From positions 7,812,001 to 7,876,000 of the forward strand of contig JAKZAN010000004.1 in NCBI GenBank assembly GCA_023053545.1: a stretch of DNA of 64,000 bases, read 5' to 3'. The notes beneath the pieces were generated by a model, which saw only the letters and a program-made list of their open reading frames with translations, was not told where the DNA came from and did not search any database. Every line of letters begins with the position of its first letter. Position 1 is the stretch's first letter. Positions 4,453 through 64,000 of the stretch are shown piece after piece. The position numbers and the translations under genes were made by a program. This DNA is from Lepidurus packardi (Eukaryota > Arthropoda > Branchiopoda > Notostraca > Triopsidae).

Positions 4453-6933
4453 ATGGAATCTAGGAGCTCATGTGAATTCAAAGGTCCGACAGAAAACATA
4501 ATTGCGAAATATTAGTTTTACAATAAATTACCTTGGTATAGGCGTTTGGGTGTCGTTAGTTGTGCTTATAACCTCTCAGTATTCATTCTCTCCGGGAGCT
4601 AGTGAATGCATCTGCAATCTTAACGCCACGACACGCGAGCAACGAAATAGCGTAATTATGAATGCAACACGTGATATAATAATAAACATCACAGCTGAAG
4701 TCACTTCGTATCTCCTTGAGAATACAAAGCGCACGCCGATGATTTGGCAAACTTCACAACTGAATACGATACAACCTTTTAATATGACGAGAAGCCTACT
4801 TAACACTGTAGATAGTGTTCCGTTCAACAGCATCATATATATGGTGCTGCTGCTGGGTTTACAACCCTGGCATAACAAATTAAATCTTTCCAGTAAGTGC
4901 ACATATAAAGTTATAGCAACTGTAAATAGGCTCGGAGTCTTAAAGCTTTGAAAAATCAGATTCTTTCATTAACAACACGACAAAGGCAGATCAATGGGTC
5001 GGTTCAGATTGGAATGTTCCATTAAATTGGACATCAGCTTCCATGAACTTATCCGCTTACATTCAGAACGTCTTTATATTTAAACTACACGAACAACTTG
5101 ACCTCTTAGCCTTAAATACCAGTTACCCTATTGGAGGCTTTACTTTACCGCGTTCATTGTCTTACTCCGGTATTGAATGGAAGGACGGAAAGTGTAACAC
5201 ATGCACATGCCTCGCCAAGGAAGGTAAAATATTTTTTGCGATAGTTTTGCCGTTAACTGAAATGGAATAAAAACTACTGTGGAAAAGGATTTTCCTATAT
5301 GGTTCAATTTTCCTCTGACATGTCGAACCTGACACCAAATATTAGCGAAAAGGTGCTACGAACAGATATTCAGCTCGCGGTATTACTTCCAAATAAGGGC
5401 ATATAACGTGACAGTAATTACATTGTCATAATTAAAGGTGGACAATTATTCAAGTCAAGCGTTTGGTAATAGTTATATACAAAGTGACTTGTCCTCATCG
5501 GATCTCAAAAGGGAAAATCAACGCGTCACGGCCAATGTAACGCTCTATTTCAATGGCTCGTATTGGACACCTAATTACACGTCATATGCAAACGTTACCT
5601 TGGGCAAAATGAAGCAGTTTGACTTCACTTATCTTAAAGTCAACTCTAGTTTCCTCTATCTTCCCCACATTATTAACTGTAACGTACTTATAAAGTACTT
5701 GTTTACCATAGCTTACTACATTAAACTCGAAAATTTATAGGTATTACTTACAGTTTAGAAAAAAATTCAACGAATAACAGGGACGTGCTCCAATATTACA
5801 AGAATGGCACTTGTCCAAACATCACTGCTGTAATATCTAACCTAACTGAATCTACATCAACTCCAACGGCATCCCCTCAGCACACACCAACTGAACCCAT
5901 GTCAAGCCCACCGAAAACTCAGCTCCAGTTCACCAGCCCCGCAGCTCCAACTGCAGGAAATCCCGGTTTCAATATTGCAACTGGACCTCAGACTACCCCA
6001 CCTTCGGTTATTCTGAGCATTCCAAACAAACCAACTACCACTATTGGTTCTCAGAATACTAGTCTATTGTCTACTATAACACAACCTACCGTTGCACCTC
6101 AAGCTAGCAGTTATGTCACGTCGCAATCAAACTCCATTAATAGTAGTACTAAGACGCAATCAAACACCTTTATTGGTAGTGTTAATGCGCAATCAAATAC
6201 CACTAATAGTAATATTACTTCACAATCAGACACCGCCAGTAATTCGCCTACTGCTCAAACTACAAAAACTTCATCAGGGTTACCTTCCAAACCTGACTCT
6301 TACATTTTATCTTCTTCTGCGTTGCCAAACATTGGTCAGGCAAGTCAAACTGCTAGTACATCTCCACCCGGTACGTCTCAGGTTCCAGAAAGTGCCAAGA
6401 GCACTATCAACATAGAGGCTAATGTTTCAGAAATAACCGTACCAAGTCTTTTACAAGGTAGTAATCCAACTACTGCTCTTTTACCCAACCAAAACAAAAC
6501 TACTTCGAACTCGACGAATAAAACCCTCACTACTACGACTTCATTACCCACTACACCCTTTGACCAGGATCCCTTTTTCAAGCCAGTTGTCCCTATCATC
6601 AAAAAAGTGTACAACGGTAAGGTTTACTTACAGTCAATACTTTCCTGCACTACATGCTTAATATTTTGGTAAACAAGACCGGGTTTTGCTAAGCGGCAAA
6701 ATGAGCGTCCTGACGCCTCTGACAGAAAGGATACTATTTTACAAAATCTCTATTCCAGTTGCTGCTTGTAAGATAAATTATTTATATGAACGCTTTGACG
6801 AATTTTTTAATTATAATTTATTCTAGGCATACTAATCGCGTTCATCTTATGCATATACTGCCTCCAAATTGATTGGATGGCTTGGGCTAGCAAGAAGAAA
6901 GATTCCGGAGCCTTTGGGGTTACCAAAGCGTAG
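4453..6933 (+). CDS. Array copy 1: mucin-like type I membrane protein (divergent subgroup)
   Basis: Eight exons: 4453-4483, 4542-4892, 4960-5223, 5288-5379, 5438-5678, 5741-6616, 6678-6767, 6827-6933; 683 codons plus TAG. The start ATG was chosen because exon 1 (MESRSSCEFK) then matches the short first exons of later copies. A hydrophobic signal stretch (VSLVVLIT) precedes C-I-C-N. The third exon ends in a Cys cluster CNTCTC and lacks the G-I-F-R-P motif of later copies (GGFTLP instead). Residues about 326-600 are a Ser/Thr/Pro/Asn-rich, sequon-dense stalk with a 33-bp repeat. The juxtamembrane motif is FDQDPFFKPVVPIIKKVYNG. The last two exons give KISIPVAAC and the membrane segment ILIAFILCIYCLQ, then IDW and a basic tail (ASKKK). 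Function unknown; a heavily glycosylated cell-surface role is inferred from layout. Confidence 0.82.
6122..6253 (+). repeat. 33-bp tandem repeat inside copy 1 stalk
   Basis: Four imperfect units beginning cgcaatcaa at 6122, 6155, 6188 and cacaatcag at 6221, exactly 33 bp apart, encoding an 11-residue Q-S-N/D-T/S-x unit. The unit length keeps the reading frame, so copy number can vary without breaking the protein. Confidence 0.85.
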
Positions 6934-7457
6934 CCCGGACGATTTGTAGACTGGAAAACTGTCCCGAAATTTTGAAAATCCTACTTGCACCAAAGTATGC
7001 ACGCGAAAGAGAGATTACAAAATAATTTCTTAAGCATTCCATTGGAAAGCACATTATGGAGTCGAAAATCACACGCACGAGTTGAAGCTTTCTCTGAGAG
7101 ATTACAAGAGACCTGCTGTTAATGGTGATATATTTCCTTTTGTCCCTTGTTCCACTAGAAAACCATAATAATCTTGAAAAGACCTTGAAAGTGCTGCACT
7201 GGAAATACATCATATTTCCCCTAGGTAGATCCATTAGTTCCTTCCATTGTCTAGGCGAACCTTTTTAGCTACAAAATAGGCGATACATGTACTTTGTTGC
7301 CAAGCAATTTACTAGTAACAGGTAACAAAGCTTAGTATGAATGAACTATAAAGAACATTGAGTGACCCGAGAAATGATTCAGTTGACGAAGGATTGCGGA
7401 AGACTAAACTGGGTGTTTGTTACCACGGAATTCAACTGTTAGCATAGAAGTGACGTG
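6934..7457. other. Intergenic: copies 1 to 2
   Basis: No gene seen. It must contain the end of copy 1 and the promoter of copy 2, but I see no clear TATA or poly(A) signal. Confidence 0.5.
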
Positions 7458-9691
7458 ATGAATAAGTGTAGTTCACGAAGCCAGTTTGCCGGCAAAGTAC
7501 CGGCTCAGAGCTTGTACGAGTCTGCAAGATTCTGTTTATTACTAGTTCTCTTACCAGTTTTTGTCGACAGCGCTTGCAATTGTACTCTGAATTTAACTAC
7601 ACGCCAACTAAACCATAATCGTATAAGAGACGAAGCTCATAAAATTATAACGAATTTCACAGCTGAAGAGGCTAGCAATGTTGCTAATTACACAAAAAAA
7701 GAGTTTGATCTGCACGCAAGTTTAAATAATAGCTTCACAAGCCGTGGGATCTACCAAAACTTGACGGATTTTGTTCTCAGAGGCGGACTACGTCTTTGGG
7801 CTGAAGATGAAATGCCGGCAGAAATTACAAGTACGTGCTATTATATTAGTGGCCTAACTGGATTGCGGGAATAACCTCTTCTCGCTTTACAGAAAAATTA
7901 TTGAAATCTGCAATGGATACTTTGATCTGTAATGAAACTGAATGCTGGGATTTGCCAATGAAATGGTACCCTGCAAATGTCAACTTGACTGCATACTTGA
8001 AACATGCGTATATGTATCGCCTTCACGAAGCCCTCCGAAACTATACTTTAAAAAAACAGACTCCCCTTGGATGGTTTTCTGTCGATCGCTATAGGAGATT
8101 CTTCGGAGTAGACGTGGTTAACTCGGGCACTATTCAGAGCTCGTGCCTTTGCCGGGCAAACTACAGTGAGATATCAAAAAATAATTCACTTATCCGCCGT
8201 AGACAAATGGGAAATCTAAAAATGTTAAATAAATATTAGGCTACACGTACTCATTCAAATTTTCTGTATCGAGTCCAATTAACGCCTCTTTACCACTGAA
8301 CACTCATAGGAGAGAACTAAAAACAGACTTTGAACTTGCGGTAAGTACAAAACTATGACCCGGATTTTGATACACGTCCAATGGTTCATGCTGTTAGGTG
8401 GATAACTATTTGAGCGGCTTTTTCCCGTCAACATATCTGCACAGCGTTGCAGCAATCCCACAGTCTTTAGGGATGGTTGGATGGAATGTTAGTATGAGAG
8501 TCTACTTCCTAGGGTCTGTCAACAATAGCGTACAAGAAATGCCGGGTAGCATTAAAGCCATGTCCATTCTCAAGTTACCCTACACAGGACTCAACGCAAC
8601 CATTATTACAGCTCCTCTCACTTTTGGCTGTACGTAATCATCTTCCTGTTCGTTAAACAACGTTTATTATTTCCACTATTTATACATACCTACTAGGTAC
8701 CTATTCTGTCCGCAATGTTTCAATTGATGATGATGATCCACAAAATGACTACGACATATTCAGTTGTAGCCTGGCAACAACCCAGACCTCAGTTGTCGTA
8801 ACAAATTCTACTATATCGAGTTCATTTCGAAGCATTACCACTGCTGTCACCGAGGCATTAGCAGCAACAGCTTCGAATTCCACTCCACTGATAACTACGA
8901 TGATTGCGATGACTACTATGCCCCTAATCAATACTACTCTTCCAACTATCACTCAGGCGACAACACAAAAATTGACATCAAGTCCGTCGGTAAATAAAAA
9001 TTGCTAATTAAACAGAATCATAGACATAAGCTAATCTGAATGCAATGTCGAACACTTGAGTATTTCAGGTAGCTGAATTAACTTCGACTAAATTGAATGC
9101 TGTGATGGTGAGTCCGGAAACTTTAGCAACTGTAATAACTGATCCTACTCGTCTGGAGTTTACGACTTTGCCGTCTACTACTGTTGAGAATACGACCCTC
9201 TCATCAGTTCCCACAACAATGTCTACATTAAGTGATGCTACGTCTAGCGTCTCTAGGCAGTCAACTATAGGGTTGATGAATACTACGATTGCAAATATAT
9301 CGATAACTCCTGTTTCGAATGGAACGGTCTCTGTTAACGCAACGTTTGACCCGGACCCATTTTTCAAAGCCTCGGTTCCTGTAGTAACCAAAATATACAA
9401 CGGTAAATATGTTTTGCTGAAATGTAGGACAATAAGATGCTCTTATCCACAGATGGGGTTTTACTCTCCCGTATTCACGGAACCATGACACCGTTTTACG
9501 AAAAGCAAAGTTTTTACACCATAACTATTCCCGTAGCAATCAGTAAGTGATTAAATTCTACCCGAGCGAGACATGATTAAAATGATTTTGTAGGTGTTAT
9601 GGCAGCATCTTTTGCCTGCCTGCTTTGTTTACAGGTGGACTGGATCACTTCTTCAAAAAAACCTGACAAGCCGTTCAAGAGTCAGCCATAA
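7458..9691 (+). CDS. Array copy 2: mucin-like type I membrane protein (divergent subgroup)
   Basis: Exons 7458-7830, 7893-8165, 8240-8340, 8398-8629, 8697-8989, 9069-9402, 9453-9542, 9594-9691; 597 codons plus TAA. Unlike most copies the signal peptide and first ectodomain exon are fused: a continuous frame runs from ATG through ARFCLLLVLLPVFVDS into A-C-N-C-T-L-N, and no splice in the right phase exists. The coding length before the stalk (979 nt) equals that of copy 1, and exons pair one to one, so the two are sister copies. GWFSVDR stands in place of GIFRP; the third ectodomain exon begins SYTYSF like GFSYMV in copy 1. The stalk is split by one intron (phase 0) at 8990. Canonical FDPDPFFKASVPVVTKIYNG, then SFYTITIPVAI and a membrane segment AASFACLLCLQVDW with a Lys-rich tail. 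Confidence 0.85.
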
Positions 9692-10035: not shown

Positions 10036-12608
10036 ATGGGGGAATTATTTCTGCTCGATAGTTGGGGTGGTCTAATGCATCACGATTGGCTCTCCTTCTG
10101 GCTCGTTAAAGGTAACCCAGCTATACAGTTCACTTTTTAAGAGAATAGGAACAGGTGAAACACGGATGGTAAAAATATCTGTAATCAATAATGCACTTGC
10201 GTGGAAGGACCGTTTTTAATGAAGTCCGAGAAGACATTATCGTGTAAGTACCAACTCCTATTCAATTGTCCCTGCGAACTTACTGAAGAAGCTACTTCCC
10301 AAGCAGTATACATCGAAACCACACTCAGAGCAACAATTCAGAACTCGCTTGAATAGATCAGACCAAATAGATCAGCACAAATGATGTACTCATCATACAT
10401 CTCTAGCTTTCTCGGTAACCACCAATTCCGGATCGAAAGTTAATTTTTACTAACTATAATCTTTGCAACAATTGCAGTTATACTGATTTCTGTCAATTTA
10501 ACAACTGGACTAAGCTGTCCTTCTTGGTGGCCTTGGTGTCCCGACACTTCCAATAATGCAGCAATCACTACAACAAAGCCTTCACTGACCACGCAGGCTG
10601 GGTCCTATTGCAAGTGCGACTCTAGCCCACAGGATCGCAATACGAGAATCAGACTAGTCACTGATCTAATGAGAGTCGCTTTTCAAACAATTACGAATGA
10701 TGCAAGAAATAAAACAGACTCCTTCATGTTCAACACACAAAAGCATTTTGATCTGAACGACAGAATTACTTCTCTTGCAAATTCTGCCTCTCAGCCAGAC
10801 GTCTTTGCCTTTCTACTGACAGGTGGCCTGTTTACCACACCGTGGAACCAAGTAACACAGGGTATAAATAGTGTTATTTCGCCTGAGCTTTTAACCTAAC
10901 CCCACAATTAGGTTATGATTCAAACAATAGAACTTCACTAACAGAGGTTTTCGGTCAATTGTACGTTTACCCACTGGCTAATGCGCTACAAAGCATTGCC
11001 GTGGAACACGGTACTTCAATTGGAGTGTTTCGAGCAGGCCAAACCGAGACATATGATGGTGTTTGCTCACTTGCAAACGACACAGGCAACCCACCCAGCA
11101 ACTTAACCGGTTACCTTTGGCAACAGCAGTGTAAAATAAGTGTGTTGTCCATTTTGATCTTACACTTTGCGAACCTATAATTCAAATGTACACAGATCTA
11201 ATGTACTTGGTCGGCTTCTCGCTCAATTCAACTTGCTTTAACGGAACTAGCGATGAAATTTTGCTGCCAAAGAATATTGAAACAGTAGTAGGAACATTAG
11301 CTTCCGCATAATTTCTTATTACCTAATTAACCATATGTTAGTTTGACAATCATTTTATTTCAAACTACGCTCGCTTCGTTCGCTCAGCCACCATCTTTTA
11401 CTCCAAAGTAAATGGTACAATGGACGTATTGGTGGGGCTCTACTTTAAATCAAATGAATCCCTAAGGAGCATAGGTGAAGTATTGCAGAATATGAGTAGG
11501 ATCAACGGAACATATTGTGGAGGAGTCTATGTGGCATCCACCCAATTCGCCCTCGTTAACTGTGAGCTCTACTATTATTCATTAAAATCCCAAATTCCTT
11601 CAACTAACTATCCGCAGGTACTTGGTATAGTCCAGAAATTCTTACGAGAGAATGTATGAATACCAATGTGACTAATCCTAATGTTCCAAGTTCAAGTTCC
11701 ATTTTAACTGAAACAACGATAGTAACTACACAGACAACCCTTGCTGAAACTAACGTGGCTACAACTCCATTAGTAGAGCCATCGACTCAGGCAACTTCTA
11801 TTACTGAACCCAGCTCTACGACTTTAACCACCGTTCCGGCTACCATTTCGCTCATTTCCTCAACAGCACCTAGCACGTTATCGATCCCTTACGTATCTTC
11901 ACTCCCTGTCTCTAGCACTCAGCAATCCATCGATGGGATTAATAGCAAGACTACAACTAGCGAGTTTCAAACTTTGACAACAAATCTTACAGACTCGAAC
12001 AAAACTGTAAGTACTTCCCTCCAAGCTACTATTGATGTTTCCACTTCGAGACCGAATACAACTGTACAAGAACTTTCATCTACGACTACTCCAGGATCAG
12101 GACAAAATGCAGTATCATCTGTGCCGCAGTCCCAAGTACGGAAAGAGGAATATAACCTCTGGTTTTAAGGCTATGTTGTGCAGGTAACCAACAACGTTAA
12201 GGGAAGTACGATTACAATGACAACTACTGTTTCCGATAAGAATGCAACGACTTTTGATCCAGACCCGTTGTTCAAGGCTATAGCACCGTTAATGACAAAG
12301 AAATACAACGGTAGGTTACATCAACATAGTAAAAAAAATAATAATTGACAACTTACGGCTTAACTAGATCCGCTGCTTCTGCGTCAGGTGGGAACAATGA
12401 GCCCCGTGACGTCAAACACTAAATTCTACTGGGTTACCATACCGATTTGCATTTGTAAGATTTAAAAACTACCTTTGCAACTTAATTCTGACAGTAAGAT
12501 TTATTTATAGGTGCTATTATCCTGTCTGTGCTCTGTCTGCTTTGCTTGCAAGTTGACTGGCTTATGGTATGCAGCAAGAAAAATGATTCGAAGAAATTAA
12601 TCAATTAA
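10036..12608 (+). CDS. Array copy 3: mucin-like type I membrane protein
   Basis: Nine exons: 10036-10111, 10478-10861, 10912-11130, 11196-11287, 11342-11561, 11618-12135, 12184-12310, 12368-12454, 12511-12608; 606 codons plus TAA. Intron 1 (366 bp) is the longest I modelled in the array. After the signal segment (VILISVNLTTG) comes a Trp/Cys-rich insertion, CPSWWPWCPD, and a Thr-rich linker before the usual Y-C-K-C start, which no other copy has. GIFRP appears as G-V-F-R-A-G; the fourth exon ends K-N-I-E-T-V and the fifth begins FDNHF, then RFVRSATIFY. The stalk is Thr/Ser-rich. Juxtamembrane motif FDPDPLFKAIAPLMTKKYNG. Membrane segment AIILSVLCLLCLQVDW, tail with KKNDSKK. An AATAAA lies at 12728-12733, about 120 bp past the stop. 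First exon could also start at the in-frame ATG at 10075. Confidence 0.82.
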
Positions 12609-13407: not shown

Positions 13408-15770
13408 ATGGGTTCCAGATCTGCCATTCCTTGGAGCCTAAAAGGTAAGTACAACAATTTTCCACTGAAAAGGCCGTTAGGTTTGAAATAAAGCTAACTA
13501 CTGCTATCAATGTTAGAGCGTTTTATTTGGATAGTCCTGGTACTATTCATTCCAACCGTTAGCTCCGACTGCTTGTTCAGTGACAAACAAGATCTTTTTC
13601 GTGTAAGCAATATGGCAAAACTGGTATGGAGAAATACGACTATACTCAACAAATTTAATACGACCATAAAAAACAACGTTACTGCTGCTAATAAAACTTT
13701 GCAAGTCATGTCCAACTTCACATACGATATAAACCAGGTTTTATTCTACAAACTCGCCCTTAATCAGTCGTTACTAAATTTCGTCCTCATGGGTGGCTTA
13801 ACAAGCATTGATTGGGCTAACCAAACTGCAAGTATTTTTAACAAACTAAAGAAATATAAGCAATGCTGATAAAACTTTGGGATGCTATAGACTCACCCCT
13901 TTCAAGCGATCTAGTTACGTACATCATGACGGGATTTGTTCTACCGTTGCACCGAGCACTACAAACAACAGCTAATCTTTACAGGTTGTCGTATGGGATC
14001 TTTAGACCTTCGATAGTTGACTATTACTACACTGGAGTTGACACGGATTTGTTATCATACAGTTATAATTATTATTTATATCAAAGTTGCAAAGCAGGTA
14101 CGTCAAGAGTTTAATCTTCCGGAGTGGAAATACGTGTCGTTCATTAGGAAGCCGTTACACCATGAATTTTACCCTTAACCTAACATGGGTTGATGAATTG
14201 AGTTACAGAAACACGACGGTGTTCGGCGAATTGGCAACAATACTGGACGCCACAGTAAAACGATCTGCAAAATCTCTCTCTCATATGTATTAAGCGTGTA
14301 ATAATTTAGATTGATAAGTACTTCCGTCTTGCACCTTCTCCTTTTTGCTGGAACTTCGTCAGATGCAACCTGTGGAATCTCTGGCAGAATGAAACGAATT
14401 TTGTCTCTGCGACTACTGAGCTTTACTTTAATAGTGGCCTTAACCTGACCTCTAACATTAATCAATACCTAGCTTCATTGACCCTCCGGCAGCCAAATAT
14501 CATGTACAACAGCCTCCTAATAGAGCTGTACAACCTATCTATTTACACAAGTAGGACGAGTTACCGAAGACAAGAAAATAAATACTAAAACTTAATATAT
14601 TCGGCGTCTTCATAGACCTTACAGAGGTTCCTGTGCAGAACACCACAACCGCAACGCTATATTCGCTAACTGGATCTACAGTAAATCTCTCGCAATTAAC
14701 GTCAGCGGAAACAACTAGCCAATTTGAGACTCTCGTGCAGTTTAGTAGTCTTTCAAGTTTGTCATCGACAGAATTGTTAAACTACAGCTTACCCTCTACC
14801 GACATACTTCACGGTTCTACTTCGAATACTACAGTCTCGGTGTCAATTGTTACTGATACTTTCTCGACAACTACTAGCTCGTCTGCCAGTATGCAATCTA
14901 CTTCATCTGATCCTCAAATTAGCGAAGGATCTAGTAACTCCACATTCAGTGCAAGTACAGCAACGCCAGTAAGTACCGCCAGTAACTCTTCTTCAGCCAG
15001 CGAGTCGTTTGGTATTTGGGATACATCTTCATCCACACTTCAAGTTGAGACAAGTACAGCTTCTTTGCCAACTTCACCACGGTCAACTGCGTATATCGTA
15101 AGTTTCCCAATCGTCTTTTTCGATCTTCTTCTAAAGAAGAGCTAATGATTAGCACTACAGATTAAAACCAACTTTAGCACGAACACGGCAAATTCAGAAC
15201 CGGTAACATCGACCATAAAGACCACCGTACATGCTGCAACATCCTCGGGTAAGTTAAACGTAACGAGCTCTAGGCCTGAAACAAGTAGTTTTACTGCTCC
15301 GAGGTCGTCAAAAGATAACTACTTTACCTTTTACGATAGCGATTCTACCCTTTAAATCGCCTGCTAACGAAACCACCAGTCAGTCTCCCTCGGTGGGGAG
15401 CGAAACCTTCGATCCGGACCCTTTGTTTAAAGCTGAAGTCCCCGTCGTTACCAAAATATATAATGGTAGGTAGTTACGACAGTGATTACCTACGCTACCT
15501 TCAAGTTTATTACCAAAAATCCATACTTTTCTAAGACAAGAATTTGATTCGCGCTCAAGTGCAGCCTATGTCTTCAATAACCAAACAGCCTTACGTGTAC
15601 TTCATAACAATTCCCGTAGCTATAGGTAAGCCAGAAGAGGAAATGGAATATTCCAGAAATTAATCGAATTTTTAAAAGGAATAATTGCTCTGTCCTTTGT
15701 CTGCCTTTTTATCCTGCAACTCGATTGCCCCCGAACTTGGCAAGCTACTGCTGAACCCCTTCTTCCTTAA
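13408..15770 (+). CDS. Array copy 4: mucin-like type I membrane protein
   Basis: Ten exons: 13408-13444, 13517-13831, 13891-14097, 14148-14254, 14310-14550, 14616-15097, 15161-15248, 15340-15465, 15536-15625, 15679-15770; 594 codons plus TAA. First copy from the left with the full signature: signal WIVLVLFIPTVSS, then D-C-L-F, LVWRNTTILN, the exon-2 end GGLTSIDWANQT, SYGIFRPS in exon 3, a 107-nt exon 4 ending ILDAT, and I-D-K-Y-F with F-V-R-C-N in exon 5. The Ser/Thr stalk is cut by two introns; the one at 15249-15339 has a competing acceptor after 15288, so about 17 stalk residues are uncertain. FDPDPLFKAEVPVVTKIYNG ends exon 8. The membrane exon reads GIIALSFVCLFILQLDC, and the tail lacks the W and the Lys cluster seen in neighbours. 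An out-of-frame ATG lies 14 bp upstream of the start. Confidence 0.82.
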
Positions 15771-16666: not shown

Positions 16667-18968
16667 ATGTGTATGGTGCTGATGCTCATACTGATAACCT
16701 ACTCCGACGTGGCCTCTTGTAATTGCCTGTTCGGAAGAGCGAACATAACTGCACTGGCCTTGCGGAATACTACCATCCTTAACCTCATGAACGATACTTT
16801 GTTCAGCTTAACAGAGAATGCTACTGCTTCAATCCTTGCTGTTTCTAACTTTGATCTGTTTTCATCCATAAAAAGGAATCCAAATAGTACCTACGCTACC
16901 TACCTTGCCTTTGCAAGTGAAGGGAGATTACACTTGATTGACTGGACGGCATCAACAAAAGGTACTAATCCCCCCTTAATATTTAGTTAAAAATTTGATA
17001 AACTATTAAACAGGCAAAACATCAAACGCGACATCTGTCGTTGGAATGGAACTAATACCTTACATCAAAAGTGTTTTCGTCGATAAAGTTCACAACAGCC
17101 TTCAGCAGATAGCCGATAGTTACAGTTTGTCATACAAAATATTCAGACCTTACGAAAGTAATTTCGGTTTCATGGGATACAATTCTAGCCCATTATACAC
17201 CGCATCGCCAACAGTGACGACTTCTGTTTCAAATCTTGTCAAGGGCTGTTTTGCAAGTAAAGGTTTTCAAAACATGTGCCCAAACTTTATGATTAGTTAC
17301 ACTTTATTATACAGGAAAAGTATTTCTTTGGAGGCTTTCTCTTAATGTAAAGGTTACGGACTACTTGAACGAACCCCAAGGCCCTGAATTCGCCAGCTTT
17401 GCTACGACGATAGAACAAGCGGTAAGCTCTCTAAAAGTGTAATAAGGTCACCTCAATTAAACTAAATTTGCATTACATCTTTAATATCAGTTTGATGACT
17501 TTTACCGGCTGAGGGCGACGGCTTTTGCCAACGATTTTGTGAGAGTTAGTGTACTGTCGACTACTGTAACCTTTCCGGCAACATTGCTCCCGGGAACTGT
17601 TATTTGTAAAATGGAAGTCTACTTCCTCAATGCAACATACAGCAGCAGTTATGTCGAAGAGTACACGCTACTTAATTATATATCGGTTGCCCCAACATTG
17701 TACTATACAAATGCTGGAACCAAAGTATCCATTACTTTCGACACAAGCAACCTTTATACGTACATTTTAGTCGGTAATTGAAAAACAAAATATTCACTTC
17801 ATCAAAGAGCGTACTAAAACGATTCTCCCAGCTTATTTGATTAATGACCTTAGCACCACAACACCTTTGACTTCAAAAGCAACACCTCCGACTTTAATAA
17901 CAACACTTGCTACAATGGATAAGATGAGCAGTTTCAATGCTACAGTCATAGCCTTGTCCAGCAGGTAAAATTCCTATGTCTGTAATCAATCTTAGCACTT
18001 CTGTTATAGCACCTCACCGCTGGGTGCAACAACAGCAACCTCATCACATACTCAGTCAACTTTATATACTGAACCGCCTACAAACTTTAGGTCTGCCCGA
18101 ACTAATACAAATGCTACCGATTTGACAACTTCTCTTGAAACAACTTTTCCATCAGCTAAGTTAATTTTCAATACAACTGTTGTCAACGGTGGCGTAACAA
18201 ACAGGAGTACGCTGTACGACCAAACCACTGTAGTGAATACAACTGCAGCCTCAACCCTTGTTAATACAAACCCGTTAACTACGGTACCCCTAACCACACA
18301 AACCACTACAGTAGCAAGTGTACCACCTTCTACGCCTACACCTACGAGTTCAGATGTACTCAGCACAGAAAGCTCCAGTTCATCATCATTAAGCTTTTTG
18401 TCAACGATAGGGGGCAGTCTTGACCCAACAAATGCGAGTACACTACTCGAAAACGAAACTACCATGGAACCGTCTGGCAATATGATCACGGCATCTCCTA
18501 TGTTATTTAGTATACTAACTAATGCCACAATGAGCCCGAACGGCAATTCCAGTACTGCGCATAGTGACATGCAAACTGTTACAATAGCTACCAGAGGAGG
18601 GAATGGGTCTCGCCCAACTACATTTGATTCCGACCCGTTTTTCAAAGCGCAAGTCCCTGTTGTTTCCAAGGTCTACAACGGTAATGAAAAGGAATTCAAC
18701 TCAGCAATACTCTTAAGCATAATACGCAATGTATAAAAATCTAGACAAAATCTTGCTTACACGGATGATATGGATCTGGACCTCATTCTCTCACGAACCT
18801 ACTTTTTATACTATTACCATTCCTGCAGCAATAGGTAATCCCACTTTCTAACTTAATTGCAACATACAATGATAAAAAAATAATTTTCACTTAGGTATGA
18901 TTATCGCTGTAGTGTGTTGCCTTTGCCTCTTGCAAATAGATTGCCTGGGTAAGCCCATAAAGATATAA
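16667..18968 (+). CDS. Array copy 5: mucin-like type I membrane protein
   Basis: Exons 16667-16961, 17014-17256, 17315-17421, 17491-17773, 17832-17964, 18010-18680, 18745-18834, 18895-18968; 631 codons plus TAA. The ATG at 16667 (MCMVLMLILITYS, a good signal peptide) was taken; a separate upstream first exon as in other copies is possible because a CAG lies just before it at 16659-16661. S-C-N-C-L-F-G opens the ectodomain, ALRNTTILNLMNDTLF follows, SYKIFRP replaces SYGIFRP, FLWRLSLN opens the 107-nt exon, FDDFYRL and NDFVRVSVLS are in exon 5, with KMEVYFLNATY. The stalk (about residues 310-570) is Thr/Ser/Asn-rich. Motif FDSDPFFKAQVPVVSKVYNG. The membrane exon is GMIIAVVCCLCLLQIDC with a short basic tail. 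Confidence 0.82.
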
Positions 18969-19540: not shown

Positions 19541-19548
19541 TGTTAGTC

Positions 19549-23830: not shown

Positions 23831-23838
23831 CAAAAAAC

Positions 23839-27177: not shown

Positions 27178-27475
27178 GTACCATAGTTCTCTTGTCAATA
27201 CCCAAGGATTTGGTTTACGCAGCTGAGTTTTCCGATCTCAACAGCAGAGAATTTGACATTTTTGCTGACATGTTAGAAAGGGCGGCAATTCATTAACATC
27301 CGTTTCGTTTTCAAATCAAGAGCGCAAATGTTCTTTTTTTCTGGTTAGTTTGACCCTTTTCACAGGATCAATTCGATTTGCAACAGCAGCTTCGCAAGAG
27401 TTAACGTCCTTTATGTAGCTACAGATACAGCTTCCAAAATCGTATGGCCCATATGGAGGTTCATATCATTGGTAT
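27178..27475 (+). pseudogene. Relic of array exons 4 and 5
   Basis: 27178-27284 is exactly 107 nt and reads G-T-I-V-L-L-S-I-P then E-F-D-I-F-A-D-M-L-E-R-A, the exon-4 pattern of copies 9-11. Its donor is gcggca instead of gcggta. From 27349, after ttag, FDPFHRINSI and SFARVNVLYV match exon 5 (FDQFYRIKST and FARANVLSL of copy 9), and the match decays at the expected MEVH position. No exons 1-3, stalk or membrane exons flank it. A dead fragment of a lost copy. Confidence 0.85.
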
Positions 27476-50654: not shown

Positions 50655-50656
50655 TT

Positions 50657-50674: not shown

Positions 50675-51167
50675 CTGCGTTGCTGTCTATTGCACGCAGG
50701 CTGCATTTTCCGTGGAAAATTAGGCTGGTTGGTGAGTGGCTGCGATCTTTTAGGAGTGATAGGAGTCCTGCGTGTGGTCGCTGCACGGTCTTTTGAAAAC
50801 GCGTACGAGGCGGGCCGCAGAGCGCCTTAAATTGCCTTGGTTACAGAGACGCAGTTGACCTCAACCTGCCTATTACATCCGCGACGACCTTTGATTCCCC
50901 TTATTTTAAGCCAAAACCACCAGTCCTAAAAATCACCCGGTTCTTTCTGCCGGTTTTGATATTCCCTCGAACGGATTATCAACGTCGACCCTGGTGCCTC
51001 ACATGTATGGGGTAGATCTGGGTGACGCATCGAGTGACAGTTCCTGTCAAAGTGACGGTGACCCAGACCCAACCAAAAGACGGGTTTCGGGAACCCTACT
51101 GAGGAGCGGCAGGTTGCTTCCTCGTACCCCCTTGACACTGCTTTGCCTTTCGTCCGACTCTTCCACG

Positions 51168-52862
51168 ATGGCGAAGTCAGAAGAGTCAGGAGAGACGTCG
51201 CGGGCGATGGTGGCCATGATGGCTCAATTCCAGCAGTTCTTAGCCCAGCAGCAGACGCAACAGCACGCACCTGCGCTTGCCCTCCCGGCATACAAGGGGG
51301 ACAGCGATGTAGCAGGTTGGCTGCGCGACTTCGAACAGTTGGCCGGGCTTCAGGGATGGGACCCATCGACAAGGCTGCGGTTCGCGATATCGAAACTGAG
51401 CGGCGTTGCCCGTACGTGGCAAGACGTTGAAGGTAGCGGGCTGAAGGATTGGGCAAAGTGGTGCCAGCGGCTCAAAGCTGTTTTTGGTCGAAGCCTCACT
51501 CTGGAGGAGTGGCTCCGCCAAGTACAGGAGAGGGTGCAGCAGCCTGGCGAACCTGTAATCCAGTACGTCCTGGAGAAGGCGGAGTTGTGCCGGCGATGCC
51601 CGCATGGTATTGTCGAGGCGGACATAATCCCTTACCTCATCCGGGGTCTTGTTTGTAGGCAATACGTCCCCGCATTGCTAGTGAACCCTCCAACGACTGT
51701 CGGGACGTTCATAGACGTGATCCAGCGGTTAGCGAGCGTAATGGCCTCACCCGAGGCTGAGGCGTTAGCAGGACACCTGTCGGCTACGTCCACTACCTCC
51801 TTGCCACCCACTTTTCTTCCTCCTGTCGCCACGAGGTCAGTGTTGGCGCTGGAATCGAGCTCTCCGCAGATTCCAGACCCCGTTAGGGAATTAACGGAAG
51901 CCATGACTCAGCTTTCAAATCAGCTGAGGCGCAATACTCCTCGTGAGGGCAGGGATCGCAGCACCGGCGATACTACGGAGACGGGGGAGGGAACAACGGG
52001 TCCCCGAAGACCACGGGAACAAATCCAATGCTATGGGTGTAAGGCGTTGGGCCACTTACGGCGGGACTGTCCAGCTAAATGTCCCCAAGCCGTCGGGAAA
52101 CGGGAGGGCCGCCCCGTAGGGGCAAGGGCGGCGTTAATCACCCAAGTCCCCGATGGAGTGATGGAGATGCCCACTCAGCGAGCCAGGATCGCGGACGTGG
52201 GATGGGTAGAAGCGCTGGTCGACTGCGGAGCTCGCGTCAGCCAGATTAGGGAAAGAGATCTGGGTCCGCTGGTTAATTCGGTTCGGTCGACGGACTGCGC
52301 CAGCTATGAGTGCGCGGATGGACGGTTGACAGGCACTCTTGGCTCCATTCCTCTGACCGTGGAGGTACTCGGACAGGTAGTGAAGTTGCCACGCGTCATG
52401 GTCGTGGAGAACGCGCCGTTTGCGCTAATTCTTGGTGGCGACTGGTTCAGGGCAACCGAGGCGACTGTTCGTATGAGGAATGGCAGCTACGAGGTCGAGA
52501 TAGGAAAGTCCGTGCTCTCACACTTTGACTCTGGAATCGTTATGGACCCACTCGAGCATGACAACGATATTAGGGCGATTGAGACCTGTGAAGTCGTCAG
52601 CAAGGCATCTGAAGCGTTTTCGGGGCAGGAGGCTGACGTACCTGCAGGTAACCTTCGGTTTGTGCAAGCCACGGTGGCGGTCGACGATAAAGTTTTACGG
52701 ATGGAGCCGAAGCTGAACTCTGAGCCTGGGTGCGAGTGGGCTACTCCAAGCTGTCTGCTGACAGTGGAGAGAGGAGTGGTACACGTTCCGGTGTTGAATT
52801 TTTGGGGACCAGGCTGTTCGACTATCGAAGGGAAAAGCGTTGGGGCGTTGGGATTTGGTTGA
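51168..52862 (+). CDS. Retrotransposon Gag-protease polyprotein
   Basis: Open from 50994; the ATG at 51168 in a good context (ccacgatgg) is preferred, an earlier in-frame ATG being at 51003. Capsid-like region: Trp-containing GWLRDFEQLAG, then a helical stretch with WAKWCQRLKAVFG. One CCHC zinc knuckle, C-x2-C-x4-H-x4-C, at about 52031-52075 binds the RNA genome. A pepsin-like protease follows: D-C-G-A (the usual motif is D-T/S-G-A) near 52220 and I-L-G-G-D-W-F near 52430. The Cys in the active-site triad may be natural or may mark decay. The frame ends at TGA 52860-52862, overlapping a downstream frame shifted by +1. Confidence 0.88.
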   Translation: MAKSEESGETSRAMVAMMAQFQQFLAQQQTQQHAPALALPAYKGDSDVAGWLRDFEQLAGLQGWDPSTRLRFAISKLSGVARTWQDVEGSGLKDWAKWCQRLKAVFGRSLTLEEWLRQVQERVQQPGEPVIQYVLEKAELCRRCPHGIVEADIIPYLIRGLVCRQYVPALLVNPPTTVGTFIDVIQRLASVMASPEAEALAGHLSATSTTSLPPTFLPPVATRSVLALESSSPQIPDPVRELTEAMTQLSNQLRRNTPREGRDRSTGDTTETGEGTTGPRRPREQIQCYGCKALGHLRRDCPAKCPQAVGKREGRPVGARAALITQVPDGVMEMPTQRARIADVGWVEALVDCGARVSQIRERDLGPLVNSVRSTDCASYECADGRLTGTLGSIPLTVEVLGQVVKLPRVMVVENAPFALILGGDWFRATEATVRMRNGSYEVEIGKSVLSHFDSGIVMDPLEHDNDIRAIETCEVVSKASEAFSGQEADVPAGNLRFVQATVAVDDKVLRMEPKLNSEPGCEWATPSCLLTVERGVVHVPVLNFWGPGCSTIEGKSVGALGFG

Positions 52863-53324: not shown

Positions 53325-53334
53325 GGGGGGTAGG
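53325..53334 (+). other. Candidate polypurine tract
   Basis: TGGGGGGTAGG shortly before the right LTR; the position fits plus-strand priming, although eight bases (tggccgag) lie between it and the LTR. Confidence 0.4.
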
Positions 53335-53342
53335 TGGCCGAG

Positions 53343-53580: not shown

Positions 53581-53689
53581 ACCGTCTGGATCACTAGGCG
53601 ACAAAAGAATTTTTCCGTTGGAACGCCAACGATACAACCCTGCATTGGATTAAGTCAAAGGTGCGATTTAAGGTTGTCAGACAATCAGC

Positions 53690-53880
53690 TGAGCATGTTT
53701 CAAAAGTTTCCAACTACAAGATCACAGATTTACTCGGAAAAGCCCCATTTTCAGTTGACCCAAGCAATTACCTCAATTTTTTTAGCAAAGGGAAAATGCT
53801 CTCCATTAATTGGACTACTGGTGAGCTGCAAACTCTTTATATTTACTTACTCGCAGTTCACTCAATGAATAATGGGCTTG
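53690..53880 (+). pseudogene. Relic of array exon 2 and intron 2 (sister of copy 14)
   Basis: KVSNYKITDLLGKAPFSVDP and NYLNFFSKGKMLSINWTTG match exon 2 of copy 14, and the match continues through the short intron (gtgagctgcaaactctttat versus gtaagctgcgaaatctttat) to its acceptor and the first bases of exon 3. No signal peptide, later ectodomain or membrane exons are nearby. The LTR element lies about 110 bp to its left, so the missing 5' part may have been lost with the insertion or a later deletion. Confidence 0.85.
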
Positions 53881-54627: not shown

Positions 54628-56761
54628 ATGGGAGACTTTCAATTCCGCAAGAAAGGTAAATGAGGAGTTTTAGTGTGTGTCCCATATCCCAGGTTTCCCT
54701 AAAACAACCTACACATTTATTAGGTTTGATTCTCTTGATAATAACATTTCCGGAGATGGTTTTCTGTGGATGTGTCTTTGGAGCTGATAACATCCACGAA
54801 TTACAGCAACGGAACCAGACCATTGCGGGCCTTATGAATGACACTTTGTTGAACCACACGACAAGTCTCGACCAAACAATTGCCAGCATTTCAAATTTCA
54901 AGCTATGGAACTACTTACAGACCACTTATTCGCTAACTTCAAGGAACTATCTGGATTTCATTAGTATGGGCAAAATGTTACCCATCAATTGGACAGTTGG
55001 TAAGCGTTACATATAATTATCGAAGATTTCAGTGATAGAATTTGGGACGTCCCAAACAGCAACCAGATCGTATGTAATGTATAACACCCAAGCAAACCAA
55101 ACTGTAGCTTCTTACGTAAGCACAGAGTTTATGGACGCGCTTTATAAGAAGCTGCAAAATATGGCAGTCTACTATAGTTTCTCTCTCGGAATTTTTCGAC
55201 CAACACAGACGCAGTTCAATTACACCGGCTACACAGCTCCTTCCACAGATTCTTCTACGGACAATTCCAGCCTTGTCCTGAACTGCTTAGCGGGTACTTA
55301 TATTTTTTGAAATTTACAATGCGGAGAGATTATAAGGGTTATTCTAGGGAGTACTTTTCTCTGGCGAGTCTCTACCACCATACCATACTCTATCCAATTC
55401 AGCTATGTTCGAGGCAATACGTTCGCAACAGTTGCTGTTATGATTGAAAACGCTGTAAGATTCTTCAAACACAAAGAATGTATGTTGGCTCATAAAATTG
55501 TGCTCTTTATTTACAGTTTGATCAATACTACCGCAATCATTCAGTATTGCACAAAGATTTTGTTCGAGTTAATGTACTCCAAGCAACTGAAGCGTTCGGA
55601 TACGTGATTATATCAATGGAGGCTTACTTTCTCAACATTTCTTATGATACCACTACCATTGCTAATCTAACATCAATTTCTAAGCTACCGGCAGTGCAAT
55701 TCCAAAACGGAACCATGAAAACCCCAACGGCTGTGACAATAAGAAATGAAACAGTTTACACGTTCATCTTTTACCGTAATAATGATGAAATTTCTTTATT
55801 TATAAGTGATAATAGATACTTTCACAATGCTAGCTACTTACCGAAAAACACCAAGTGCATCAACAGCTGTACCAACTAAGTCTGGAAGTACGTCGATTGC
55901 TCCTGAAACCACAACGATTCCATCATCCACCATAACTAGTTCAGCTCCTCCAAACTCCACTTCTGTAACCAACACATCGACTACGTCTTCTGTAACAGAA
56001 ATTTCGAGTTCAACGACTACGAGTTCCCGAGTATTCCCAGCAACAGAAACAACTACTTCTACTGCAGGAACGACTAATACCCCTACAACAGCGTCTAGTA
56101 TCACTACAACAGCGTTTAATATTTCGAATTCAAGTTTTTCACTACCTTTAAATACTTCATCAATGGAGTACTACAGTACTTCCTCAACGATACGAACAAC
56201 CAGGGCAAATGTTTCAAGCACTAGTAATTCATCAATACAAACAACGCAACAATCCAATCAAATGCTGTATAACCTGACAACCTTGAACCAAGCTAACCAA
56301 ACAAACTTCAAGAGCACCGCTTTGGCAAACAATTCCTCAAAAACTAATTTGAATAACACCCAGCTGGGAAGTACTGAAAGTACTGGATCTATGGGTAATA
56401 CTGCGAAAGAAAGTACTAAAGGAGGAACCACTTTCGATCCCGATCCGTTCTTCAAAGCCAGCGTTCAAGTAATTACCAAAATTTACAACGGTAAGAGAAA
56501 GAACTGGGTTCATCTAGGGATTAATTGGATATTATCAATTAGACGAATATCTGCTTCGATCGAAAATGGGCAAAATGGCTCCAATGATTGAAAGAGTGGG
56601 CTTTCTGAGCATTACTGTTCCTACGGCGATTGGTAAAAATCCCAAGCTTTTTTTCTATCAATTTCTCTTTTAACTTACATTTAATAGGAATAATGGCACT
56701 CGCCATTATTTGCCTTTTTTGTTGGCAAATGGACTGCATGCCTGCAGGCACTGAAGTGTAA
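54628..56761 (+). CDS. Array copy 15: mucin-like type I membrane protein
   Basis: Exons 54628-54655 (28 nt), 54724-54999, 55033-55293, 55348-55454 (107 nt), 55517-55775, 55834-56490, 56543-56632, 56688-56761; 583 codons plus TAA. The start lies in gaacaagctATG, a context shared with copies 16 and 17. Signal GLILLIITFPEMVFC; GCVFGADNIHELQQRNQTI; GLMNDTLLNHT; KLWNYLQTTYSLTSRNYLDF; GKMLPINWTV. FSLGIFRPTQTQFNYTGY; TFLWRVSTT; FATVAVMIENA; FDQYYRNHSV, KDFVRVNVLQAT, SMEAYFLNISY. The exon 5 donor follows FIFYR rather than V-N-C, so the cysteine is lost. Single Ser/Thr/Asn-rich stalk exon of 657 nt. FDPDPFFKASVQVITKIYNG; DEYLLRSKMGKMAP; FLSITVPTAIG; membrane exon GIMALAIICLFCWQMDC, tail MPAGTEV. Intron 2 is only 33 bp. 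Confidence 0.85.
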
Positions 56762-57965: not shown

Positions 57966-60229
57966 ATGAGATTACTTCTGCACCAGGTAATAGGTAAGAG
58001 GAATTTCTGTGTATGGGACAAATACTAAGTTACCAACGAAATTTGTGGTTCAGTGGGAACGACTGTATTGCTGGTGGTACTGCCCAAGTTGGTTCAGGGA
58101 GGATGCGTTTTTGGAGCTGATAACATCAATCAGCTAGTACTTCGAAACAATACCATTATGGGCCTTATTAACGATACATTGCTCAACTACACTGAGTACA
58201 GTCACTATGAAATTGCTAAGGTCTCAAACTTCACGTTATGGAATTACCTGCAGACTAATTACACCTTAACGACTAAGAATTATCTGGAATTTGTCAGCAT
58301 GGGCAAATTGTTGGCAGTCAACTGGACAACAGGTAGAAGTTCTCTAAAGTTACACTAAGCTGAACAGACATTTGATACCAAATTACGATAAAAAATATCG
58401 TTAAAATAGCAACCAAAGCAATTAAAACCAACGAAACTGCGCCTGGAACTGTAGCTGCATATATTAAAACCAAGTTTATTGACCCACTTCACAACAAACT
58501 GCAGGAGATGGCAGTATATTATAGTATCTCCTTTGGGATATTCCGCCCTACGAAAAGGCAGTTCTACTTCACTGGCCTTACCCTTGCTTCTAACTCCACT
58601 GCTACAGTAAATGCTACTCTAGACATGAGCTGCTTTGCTGGTACTTGAAATTTTGGCCAGGTACGTCGTGATATGAAAAGTTATTTTTTTAAACAGGAAC
58701 CCTAATTCTCTGGAGAGTGTCCACCTATAAACTCTATTTCAATGCACTCAACAATGAAAACAGCACCGAATACGCTACAATGGCTACCATGGTTGAAACA
58801 GCAGTAAGTTCTCTTGCGAATGTGAAAAGTGTTAAATTAAAGACAATCTATCGTTTTACATCCAGTTTGACCAATACTACCGGAAACATTTAGTATTGAA
58901 TAAAGATTTTGTCAGAGCTAATGTGGTTTATGCCCATGATAGCTCAAACTATCTTGTTATGTTCCTGGAAGTTTATTTCCTCAGCAATTCCATCAATGAA
59001 ACCAATATTACTAGTTTAACTACGTTGTCTGGAATTCCCACCATGTACTACGACGATCCAAGTCCAACTATCATGGGAACAGAAGTAACCCTTCGAACAC
59101 CTTACCCCTACACTTACGTAGTAAACTGTAATATTCTGCTAGCAATTCTAAAATTTTGAATAACATCCAAACCATTCCTTAGCTTCTCATCCGCCACCCA
59201 CAACTTCGAGCATTTCTACGACTACCAAAACTACGGCCGGCTTGACCACAATCCTGGCCACAGAAGTCAGAACGACCCTATTAACCACTGTCACTACCAG
59301 AGACATCGAATCAACCATTGGGGTGACTTCTACGGCCTCGTCATTATCGACCGCGACAGCTTCGATTACTCAAGTACCATCGATAACTTCTCCAAGTACC
59401 ACAGGACAGTCAAGTACGTCAACGAGTAGTGTTGCAACAGCAGAAGTTACCACTTTGGGTACTCCCAACCTAACTTCTATTGTCTTTGCCACGAGTACCT
59501 CCCAGGTAACATCCCTGCCAACAAACGCGGTGAGCTCCAATAATCTAACTAATCCTGTGCAAGCAACAGAGTCCTTCCCAGCAACTACTAACCAATCAAT
59601 CGTATTTTCACCCTTTCTAAACACAACAAGTCTTAATAGCTCTCAAATTTACTTAACCTCTTCGCTACCATCAATATCTGTTTCGAGTATTTCGAATTCA
59701 AACGGTTCGACATCACAACAACCGTTCCAAGCAACAGCTATGAACTTGACAAACTCCTTCGAAGCTAACCAATCAACTACCAATGAGGGCACAGTACCGA
59801 TCAATCCTTCCACCCCTATTACTCCAATCAGCTCAACAGGAAGTACAGGTAATAAAGTCGGAATTAACCAAGGAAGCATTGATGGAGGGGGAACTTTCGA
59901 CCCTGACCCCTTCTTCAAAGCCAGCGTTCCCGTTATCACCAAGGTGTACAATGGTATAACTTCCTGGTATTACTTCCCTAAAGTCAGACAATACAATCTT
60001 ATATTCCCACAGATGACATACTTCTACGCAAAATGGGTACCATGCCTCCCCTAACGGAAAAAGCAACGTTTTTTTAGCATTACCCTACCAGCAGTTATTG
60101 GTAGATTTCCAGCTCTGACATCTGAAAAAAAAAATCTAACTTAGCATTTTTTTAGGAATGATCGTTGCCATTATTGTTTGCATGTCTTGTTGGCAGATGG
60201 ATTGCCTGTTTCGCCGGGGTAAGGAGTAA
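57966..60229 (+). CDS. Array copy 16: mucin-like membrane protein, frame broken before membrane exon
   Basis: Exons 57966-57993 (28 nt), 58054-58332, 58410-58640, 58697-58803 (107 nt), 58866-59127, 59183-59953, 60013-60100, 60156-60229. Signatures: VGTTVLLVVLPKLVQG, GCVFGADNINQLVLRNN, GLINDTLLNYT, FVSMGKLLAVNWTT, ISFGIFRPTKRQFYFTGL, DMSCFAG, TLILWRVST, FDQYYRKHLV, KDFVRANVV, FLEVYFLSNS, VVNC. The stalk is 771 nt in one exon, Thr/Ser-rich. FDPDPFFKASVPVITKVYNG and DDILLRKMGTMPPL are intact. In the exon before the membrane segment a run of seven T at 60069-60075 shifts the frame and gives TAG at 60075-60077; that exon is 88 nt where sisters have 87 or 90, and the frame beyond the run is otherwise perfect through GMIVAIIVCMSCWQMDC to TAA. 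Either a real disabling mutation (yielding a tail-less, secreted form) or a homopolymer sequencing error. AATAAA at 60590-60595. Confidence 0.78.
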
Positions 60230-62597: not shown

Positions 62598-62884
62598 GCC
62601 AGTAAGAGCTTGTAAAAAAGGGTTTATCGAAGCTTTTTAACACAAGTAAACGCTAAACTCACCACATTGTACTTCACATCATAACGGGTATTGTAAAATG
62701 AACATGTAGCCAACAAAAACGATCGCACTCAGACAGAGTTCATAGTCTCGGCCCCGCTTTGACCAACCTGAATAACAATCGTTTTTGTAGTGGTCTAAAA
62801 TTTTTTCTTCTCTCACAAGCTCAACGCTTCGACCATATAGCAAACGGTTCACTCGACGACGAGCTGTATAGGAACGAGCAAGCC
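62598..62884 (+). promoter_or_regulatory. Upstream region of copy 17 conserved with copy 16
   Basis: Counterpart of 57647-57965, ending gaacgagcaagccATG. Supports the start codons chosen for copies 15-17. Confidence 0.6.
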
Positions 62885-64000
62885 ATGGTCTCAGTAACAC
62901 CTAGCGTAATAAGTAAGCCGAATTTAGCGAGTGGCAATGATCGAGAAACTTCGAGAAACATCGTGAAACATCGACTCTACAAAACAGTTTATGGTCTACT
63001 GGGTACGATCGTACTGCTGACGGTACAACCAAAGTTGGTTTATGGACGATGCGTTTTTGGAGCGGATAACATAGACCAGCTAGTACTTCGAAACAATACC
63101 ATTGTGGGCCTTATGAACGATACTTTGCTCAACTACACTGATTACAGTCACAAAGACATTGCTGAGGTTTCAAGCTTCATGCTATGGAATTATCTGCAGA
63201 AGACTTACTCACTGACGAATAAGAACTACTTGGATTTCGTTACTATGGGCAAATTGTTGGCGGTCAACTGGACAAGCGGTAAACCTTTACTATTTAAGCC
63301 GATATACAGTACTAGTATAATATTTTCCACCACTGAAATAGCAACAATGGGAGTAAAAACCAATGAAAGTTCAGTATCCCGAACTGTAGCTTCGTTCATA
63401 ACTACTGAATTTGTGGATCCACTTCATAACACGCTTCAAGCTATGGCAGTTTACTACAGTATCACACTTGGGATTTTTCGACCCAAGAAAATGCAGTTTA
63501 ACTTTACCGGTATCACCCTTACATCAAATATGAATTCTACGAACACGGCGATTCTTGATTTGGGCTGCAGTGCAGGTATCGAAAATGCTGTCTTGCAAAT
63601 TACGGAAAATTAACAGGCTAATTTACAAATATCTTCACAGGTAGCTATTTTTTATGGCGAGTTTCGACGGGTGTGTCATATAACAAAGCATTTGGCAACG
63701 CCCGCAGCGTCCAATTTGTCACAGCAGCGCTCATGGTTGAGGATGCTGTAAGAATAATTGCAATTTACGATCACAACGACTTACCCTACAAAAACTTGGT
63801 TTCTTCTTTATAGTTTGACCGATATTACAGAACACATCTTGCGTTGAACAAAGATTTTGTTAGGGTTAATGTAGTTGCTGCTCAAGACAGTTTATTGTTT
63901 CTCGTATTGCACATGGAAGCTTATTTTCTCAACAGTTCCTACAGTACTTCCTATATCAGTAGTTCAACGATTATTTCTAAGCTACCCCCAATGTACTACG
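62885..64000 (+). CDS. Array copy 17: mucin-like membrane protein, 3' end outside window
   Basis: Exons 62885-62912 (28 nt), 62988-63278, 63342-63575, 63641-63747 (107 nt) and 63814 onward, cut by the window edge inside exon 5. Closest relative is copy 16: RCVFGADNIDQLVLRNN, GLMNDTLLNYTDYSH, MGKLLAVNWTSG, GIFRPKKMQFNFTGI, LDLGCSAG, YFLWRVSTG, FDRYYRTHLALNKDF and HMEAYFLNSSY. Intron 1 happens to contain no stop, so an unspliced frame is open from upstream through exon 2 into intron 2 and beyond; splicing at 62912/62988 is preferred because it gives the standard 28-nt first exon. Stalk and membrane parts are not visible. Confidence 0.82.

Follow-up and report, generated by a model that had tools for sequence, protein, structure and literature searches.

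A tandem array of predicted mucin-like membrane glycoproteins bearing a SEA domain in Lepidurus packardi

RESULTS

A one-directional tandem array

The stretch of DNA analyzed here (the window) comprises 64,000 nucleotides of contig JAKZAN010000004.1 of the Lepidurus packardi assembly GCA_023053545.1 (C3:7812001-7876000 in our contig numbering), a genome of 108.6 Mb in 344 contigs, and it holds a tandem array of genes for predicted mucin-like membrane proteins. The order along each protein is head, SEA domain, Ser/Thr-rich stalk, juxtamembrane segment, transmembrane (TM) segment, and short tail. An earlier note, made from the letters of the sequence, had described 17 copies in one direction, and this description holds: 17 copies and three fragments (at 22.4, 27.2, and 53.6 kb) were found from 4.5 kb to the window end, all on the + strand, and the array also extends past that end, to approximately 115.5 kb in window coordinates. 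Copies were located with seven exon-block profiles, all built from the window, using E value thresholds of 1e-4 or less for blocks E1, E3, E4, and E6 (the FDPDP block) and 2e-3 or less for E2, E7, and E8. The window yielded 20 matches for E1, 15 for E2, 14 for E3, 15 for E4, 17 for E6, 18 for E7, and 17 for E8, all on the + strand. Across a 131.9-kb stretch, two E8 matches lay on the - strand (E 2e-5 and 6e-4), both outside the window, and a looser limit gave additional weak matches on either strand. The four ectodomain exons were all at threshold in 13 of the 17 window copies, copies 1 to 4 being divergent, and the extended region contains 22 copies in which the four exons are present with open frames.

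A genome search with one spliced ectodomain returned at least 79 exon matches, of which 77 fell in the array; with a single query, such whole-genome counts are lower bounds. The two remaining matches were C3:8034894 (E 1.3e-6) and a weak one on contig C4 (E 0.16). The former marks a dispersed relative (C3:8034515-8035965), about 107 kb past the array, in which a head, SEA-like exons, and a TM segment were read by eye, together with a short Thr-rich stretch that makes its stalk much shorter than those of the array copies. This relative is perhaps close to the ancestral form.

Exon plan and protein layout

The copies share a fixed exon plan, as had been claimed, with an ectodomain of four exons in place of the "three-exon-plus" count given in the earlier note. 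Exons 1 and 2 join in phase 1, exons 2 and 3 in phase 1, and exons 3 and 4 in phase 0; after these come the stalk exons, the FDPDP block, and, through two joins of phase 1, the TM exons. When phase was left free, the best splice candidates fitted the 1, 1, 0 pattern for 40 of the 42 ectodomain junctions in 14 copies; the E6-E7 and E7-E8 joins came out as phase 1 in 13 of 15 and 16 of 16 cases, respectively. Later copy models had these phases imposed. The script permitted GT/GC-AG introns only, so the splice sites are not an independent test. The 36 ectodomain introns measured (12 of 13 copies, the copy at 32.0 kb being excluded) were 50 to 92 nucleotides long, with a median of 61.5. Among the script's copy groups (c numbers), the weaker models are the anchors (juxtamembrane/TM blocks) of c32 and c34, which combine exons of neighboring copies, and c03, c11, c12, and c21, which were cut at an approximate acceptor.

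The conserved cysteines reported earlier, two of them invariant in the head, and the GIFRP, NDFVRV, MEVYF, and FDPDP motifs were confirmed. The FDPDP block had been assigned to every copy; the copy at 40.5 kb gave no match to it, and for the last copy it falls past the window end, at 64853. A 114-bp tandem duplication (39275-39504, 92% matches) repeats the FDPDP segment of copy 11 within one open frame. The frame shift in E7 of copy 16 (60012-60102) may reflect a pseudogene, an allele, or an assembly error.

A signal peptide, judged by the hydrophobic start of exon 1, a Ser/Thr-rich stalk, and a single TM segment are all present, which bears out the earlier proposal of a mucin-like membrane family in tandem. 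The split signal peptide of that proposal fits the 15 of 22 four-exon copies with an in-frame ATG in the exon 1 open reading frame (ORF), whereas seven have none. Peak hydropathy of the TM segment ranged from 1.8 to 2.9 in 26 models, and the cytoplasmic tails are indeed tiny, with 1 to 23 residues in the 15 window copies modeled. An upstream open stretch of at least 30 residues was found at 29 of 32 FDPDP places, 27 of these 29 with 30 to 47% Ser plus Thr; these stretches were traced back to the last stop and may take in intron or miss earlier stalk exons. Stalk ORFs carry up to 17 NxS/T sites, and median numbers of such motifs per copy were 7 (range, 2 to 9) in the head and 3 (1 to 6) in the SEA part.

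Exons 3 and 4 match the SEA domain

Single-exon Pfam scans of six array ORFs gave no family. After splicing of exons 3 and 4, 19 of the 20 copies scanned had SEA (PF01390) as their best Pfam match, with E values from 7.5e-10 to 0.023; it had been missed by the single-exon scans because an intron splits the domain. Five copies exceeded the Pfam gathering cut-off of 26.4 bits (39.3, 36.9, 34.0, 32.5, and 26.7 bits), and the matches were in register, each beginning at profile position 4 to 14 of 106. SEA was likewise matched by Pfam in 9 of 12 ectodomains and in 13 of the 14 members of the SEA-piece alignment. Furthermore, a PDB profile search with exons 3 and 4 of 14 copies placed 2e7v, 8vis, 1ivz, and 8s9p at ranks 1 to 4 (E 5e-4 to 0.036), followed by ribonucleotide reductases at E 0.15. 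Molecule names among the leading chains included TMPRSS11D (8vis) and agrin; we take all four chains to be SEA bearing, and 2e7v and 1ivz to be structures of SEA itself. Scores are modest; the ranking and the register agree, and we assign exons 3 and 4 to a SEA domain on this sequence evidence. Consequently, the view that no named family was recognizable is given up for this one module and kept for the head and the juxtamembrane segment.

The self-cleavage site of MUC1 is given as GSVVV (PMC6491460, PMC4456727); it sits in the SEA loop that connects strands 2 and 3, and in Gpr126 and Notch2 this loop is cut by furin, according to a passage of PMC6954182. In the array, the strict motif G[ST][VIL][VILAT] occurs in the SEA hairpin of 1 of 22 copies (copy 5, GTVI), a looser xS[VIL][VILMTA][VILMFA] motif in six others (c10, c11, c15, c19, c31, and c32), and R-X-[KR]-R in none of the 22 hairpins. 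Shedding by self-cleavage or at R-X-[KR]-R thus appears unlikely for about two-thirds of the copies and possible in the remainder.

The only exon-level Pfam SEA match in the genome lies outside the family, at C1:6466111, in a corin-like gene (C1:6463001-6469000) with LDLa-like and trypsin-like pieces recognized by eye.

Head and anchor

The best PDB match of a head profile (exons 1 and 2) built from 13 of the 22 copies and the dispersed relative had an E value of 0.86. Pfam matches were each confined to a single member, the best (E 0.018) falling below its family's cut-off. An AlphaFold model of the head, made from contiguous window translations, reached a mean predicted local distance difference test score of 76.1 and a predicted template modeling score of 0.67. 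It is mostly helical (helices at 10-42, 47-55, 62-67, and 115-138, plus two short strands), with low values at 83-107, where intron residues lie, and Foldseek found no match to it in the PDB. The juxtamembrane/TM (FDPDP) profile gave no convincing Pfam or PDB match, and none of its 14 members matched SEA. Five of the 14 had weak Pfam matches, to Psg1 among others (best E 0.0043), which we attribute to similarity between membrane helices and disregard.

A search of 5.8 billion proteins with an alignment of 12 of the 22 four-exon copies found no homologue, a length limit keeping full-length relatives out of reach, and region 37-305 of one full-length copy drew 1160 candidates from the same library, none with E of 10 or less. 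This search requires shared 5-residue words, and the library, which has crustacean COX1, may lack notostracan proteomes; absence of the family elsewhere is therefore not established. A scan of viral contigs revealed no relative, and a literature search covering titles and abstract openings revealed no published description of the family.

Divergence among the copies

Median identity was 0.52 for the juxtamembrane/TM block (17 copies, with c11, c12, c18, and c32 excluded from the comparison) against 0.36 for the head and 0.33 for SEA (22 copies), so that the anchor is, at the sequence level, the best-kept part. Protein distance tracked array order (Mantel r 0.34 for the head, 0.40 for SEA, and 0.33 for the anchor; 0 of 2000 permutations in each case), as expected from tandem duplication. 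Saturation at synonymous sites affected 179 of the 231 pairs compared for the head, 157 of 231 for SEA, and 86 of 136 for the anchor, which indicates that most copies are old. The ratio of nonsynonymous to synonymous substitution rates (dN/dS) of the head was 0.15 to 0.88 in the 12 pairs displayed (0.15 to 0.54 in 8 older pairs and 0.47 to 0.88 in 4 young ones), and that of SEA was 0.17 to 0.66 in the displayed pairs with computable synonymous divergence (dS). Older copies thus look to be under purifying selection.

Recently duplicated copies (c20/c24/c26 and c27/c30) lie at 66.6 to 94.5 kb in window coordinates and show patchy divergence. Between c27 and c30, dS is 0.015 in SEA, 0.095 in the head, and 0.107 in the stalk, where dN/dS is 0.65; c20 and c24 differ by 3.2% in introns and have a SEA dS of 0.18, and the corresponding values for c20 and c26 are 10.3% and 0.061. 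Such patchiness suggests exchange between copies, or gene conversion. For the stalk of c20/c24/c26, a star tree implies 26 nonsynonymous changes and 3 synonymous ones (binomial P 0.045; Fisher test versus the head, 0.043), which we regard as a hint only of an excess of amino acid change. The pressure from conflict suggested in the earlier note has weak support overall: the head stayed below a dN/dS of 1 in all pairs shown, and the signal is confined to the stalk of this one young triplet.

DISCUSSION

We tentatively favor, as a first choice among the readings considered, a tandem family of long standing whose products are type I membrane glycoproteins and would form a diversified and mostly unshed surface coat, with barrier and adhesion roles foremost. 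Its starting points are what the sequence itself supplies, namely the exon plan, the SEA match, growth in tandem, and dN/dS below 1 in the displayed head and SEA pairs. The sequence gives good support to a layout in which the mucin-like stalk bears SEA and a helical head beyond it. The Ser/Thr/Asn-rich stalk, to judge from its composition, would be O-glycosylated and would raise the head and SEA off the membrane. In most copies SEA would be a module that works uncleaved, with no part in shedding, and the short tail would give no signal on its own. The shared juxtamembrane/TM block may bind a common partner or direct sorting, and the many heads, each slightly different, would together line an epithelium of gut, gill, or gonad and serve as its barrier and adhesion layer.

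Several observations weigh against this reading. Fourteen of the 19 copies matching SEA fall below the Pfam cut-off, the copy at 98.6 kb (c32) gave no Pfam SEA match, and exons 3 and 4 of copies 1 to 3 are weak or undetected by profile. The 20-copy Pfam scan left out c24 and c30, which are near copies of others, and also the divergent copies 1 to 4. With the whole ectodomain as the PDB query, only 2e7v and 8vis lead, and non-SEA chains follow. Of the 21 copies that lack the strict hairpin motif, 6 have the looser one, which would allow cleavage there. Additionally, the stalk is without a long repeat array, and a barrier role would rest on analogy.

The closest analogy is with the SEA-type membrane mucins (MUC1, MUC3/12/17, MUC13, and MUC16), type I proteins that likewise combine SEA, a Ser/Thr-rich stretch, and a TM segment. 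Human MUC3 genes also lie in a small cluster according to a passage of PMC9578598, and a MUC1-like protein with SEA is mentioned for a sea anemone in PMC9080433, where the order in SEA-type mucins is given as stalk, SEA, and TM. In the array, by contrast, SEA is distal to the stalk, and the FDPDP block takes its place between stalk and TM; because the position of SEA departs from the defining layout, the predicted proteins are not classed as SEA-type membrane mucins. They differ from these mucins also in the rarity of the strict cleavage motif, in the stalk lacking long repeats, and in the extra head, which has no known fold match. The best sequence matches of the SEA profile (2e7v and 8vis) point to type II transmembrane serine proteases (the TMPRSS11 group and corin), yet the array has a Ser/Thr stalk and a TM segment after SEA and no trypsin Pfam match in the exons scanned. 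The topology of TMPRSS11/corin-type proteases is opposite to that of the type I array proteins. The TIM family, fractalkine/CX3CL1, and thrombomodulin consist of a folded head, a glycosylated stalk, a TM segment, and a short tail, a general layout that the array shares. The heads of that group are immunoglobulin, chemokine, or lectin-like, whereas the array head had no match in the Pfam and PDB searches made.

A stalked head with a short tail and an anchor shared by the copies also speaks for a recognition repertoire like that of receptors whose binding domain sits on a mucin stalk. Here the head (with SEA) would bind microbes, parasites, self, or gametes, and tandem growth and exchange would keep the heads diverse. 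The lower identity of the head than of the anchor, the mosaic similarity of young copies such as c27/c30, and the tendency of one triplet's stalk to excess amino acid change fit such a role. Against it, head dN/dS never exceeded 1 in the pairwise comparisons shown, and the head matched no ligand-binding fold in Pfam or, by Foldseek, in the PDB; we consider a recognition repertoire possible and give it less weight than the surface coat. We are more doubtful of its fuller form, a receptor repertoire of some 28 tandem genes in which a new helical head, joined to a mostly noncleaving SEA and raised on a mucin stalk, would be kept diverse by copy exchange and would serve immune, parasite, or gamete recognition.

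SEA also occurs in matrix proteins such as agrin, one of the PDB matches, and a passage on Gpr126 (PMC6954182) states that cleaved SEA domains hold together until force is applied. The array proteins might then be force-bearing adhesion molecules or matrix anchors (of cuticle, egg, or cyst coat) with SEA and the stalk as a link under tension. The strict cleavage motif is restricted to a single copy, and the array shows no connection with cuticle or eggs; we judge this role unlikely. That the cluster is mostly dead and under little selection seems very improbable: the fragments (three inside the window, more outside), the frame shift in copy 16, and a retrotransposon within the array agree with decay, but 22 copies keep open four-exon ectodomains, and the older pairs displayed have dN/dS far below 1.

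A large crustacean array with these parts in a changed order would show that there is more than one arrangement of SEA, mucin stalk, and TM segment. Its head domain and anchor segment are unrecognized by the libraries searched, and its set of paralogues permits barrier and recognition roles to be tested against each other in an invertebrate.

FEATURE COORDINATES AND NEIGHBORING GENES

Table 1. Array copies and associated features (window coordinates; E1, position of the exon 1 block match)
Feature	Position	Strand	E1	Comment
Copy 1	4502..6930	+	4553	Divergent; head, weak exon 4 match (E 0.018), Ser/Thr stalk, FDQDP, TM
Copy 2	7458..9688	+	7530	Divergent; weak exon 4 match (E 0.017); FDPDP, TM
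Copy 3	10444..12605	+	10588	Divergent; no convincing exons 3-4 by profile
Copy 4	13507..15767	+	13534	Divergent
Copy 5	16667..18965	+	16676	Sole copy with strict motif (GTVI), in SEA hairpin
Copy 6	19605..21745	+	19656	SEA 39.3 bits (cut-off 26.4)
Fragment	22417..23134	+		Exon 1 with in-frame stop; exons 2-4 not found; FDPDP and TM exons remain
Copy 7	23912..26102	+	23951	
Fragment	27177..27435	+		Exon 3, partial exon 4
Copy 8	29391..31360	+	29439	SEA 34.0-36.2 bits
Copy 9	31924..34218	+	31975	SEA 36.9 bits
Copy 10	35123..36980	+	35147	
Copy 11	37679..39776	+	37793	FDPDP segment twice, same frame (39310, 39424)
Copy 12	40471..42700	+	40510	E7/E8 present; FDPDP block not detected
Copy 13	43468..45778	+	43483	
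Copy 14	47726..50071	+	47804	
Retrotransposon ORF (gag, zinc knuckle, aspartyl protease)	50910..52859	+		Inside array, outside family
Fragment	53598..53819	+		Partial exon 1
Copy 15	54660..56758	+	54726	Representative full-length model
Copy 15 exon 1	54660..54999	+		Signal peptide, first half of head
Copy 15 exon 2	55060..55293	+		Second half of head: SLGIFRP, second conserved Cys
Copy 15 exon 3	55348..55454	+		First part of SEA domain
Copy 15 exon 4	55517..55759	+		Remaining SEA domain: KDFVRVNV, MEAYF; 3' end approximate
Copy 15 stalk	55836..56429	+		Ser/Thr-rich, 47% S+T in ORF; 5' end approximate
Copy 15 FDPDP juxtamembrane block, TM segment, short tail	56430..56758	+		3 exons
Copy 16	58029..60226	+	58062	Frame shift in E7 exon near 60075, beside T run
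Copy 17	62885..64000	+	63008	Truncated by window end; continues to ~65.2 kb
Copies beyond window, by script group			c20 66570, c24 78975, c26 83643, c27 87476	
Further copies beyond window, by script group			c30 92265, c31 95383, c32 98642, c33 103972	

Upstream, the array adjoins an SMG8 gene (1-2219; PF10220 on the ORF at 942-1619, E 7.7e-26) and a piece of a BTB-domain gene (2242-3840; PF00651 at 3508-3807, E 6.6e-7) on the - strand, opposite to the array. The retrotransposon gag/protease ORF within the array has a higher guanine-plus-cytosine content and lies beside the stray exon 1 fragment at 53.6 kb.

Elsewhere in the assembly, many nuclear copies of mitochondrial COX1 were seen on contigs C1, C2, C4, C6, C21, and C38. 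The one on C6 uses the invertebrate mitochondrial code and has an in-frame TAA on a 10.7-Mb contig, which identifies it as a nuclear copy; it most resembles COX1 of Lepidurus apus apus and Lepidurus couesii (98% identity), followed by other Lepidurus and Triops (96 to 97%). COX1-family genes on C52, C214, and C43 are open, with no internal stops, and may be bacterial.

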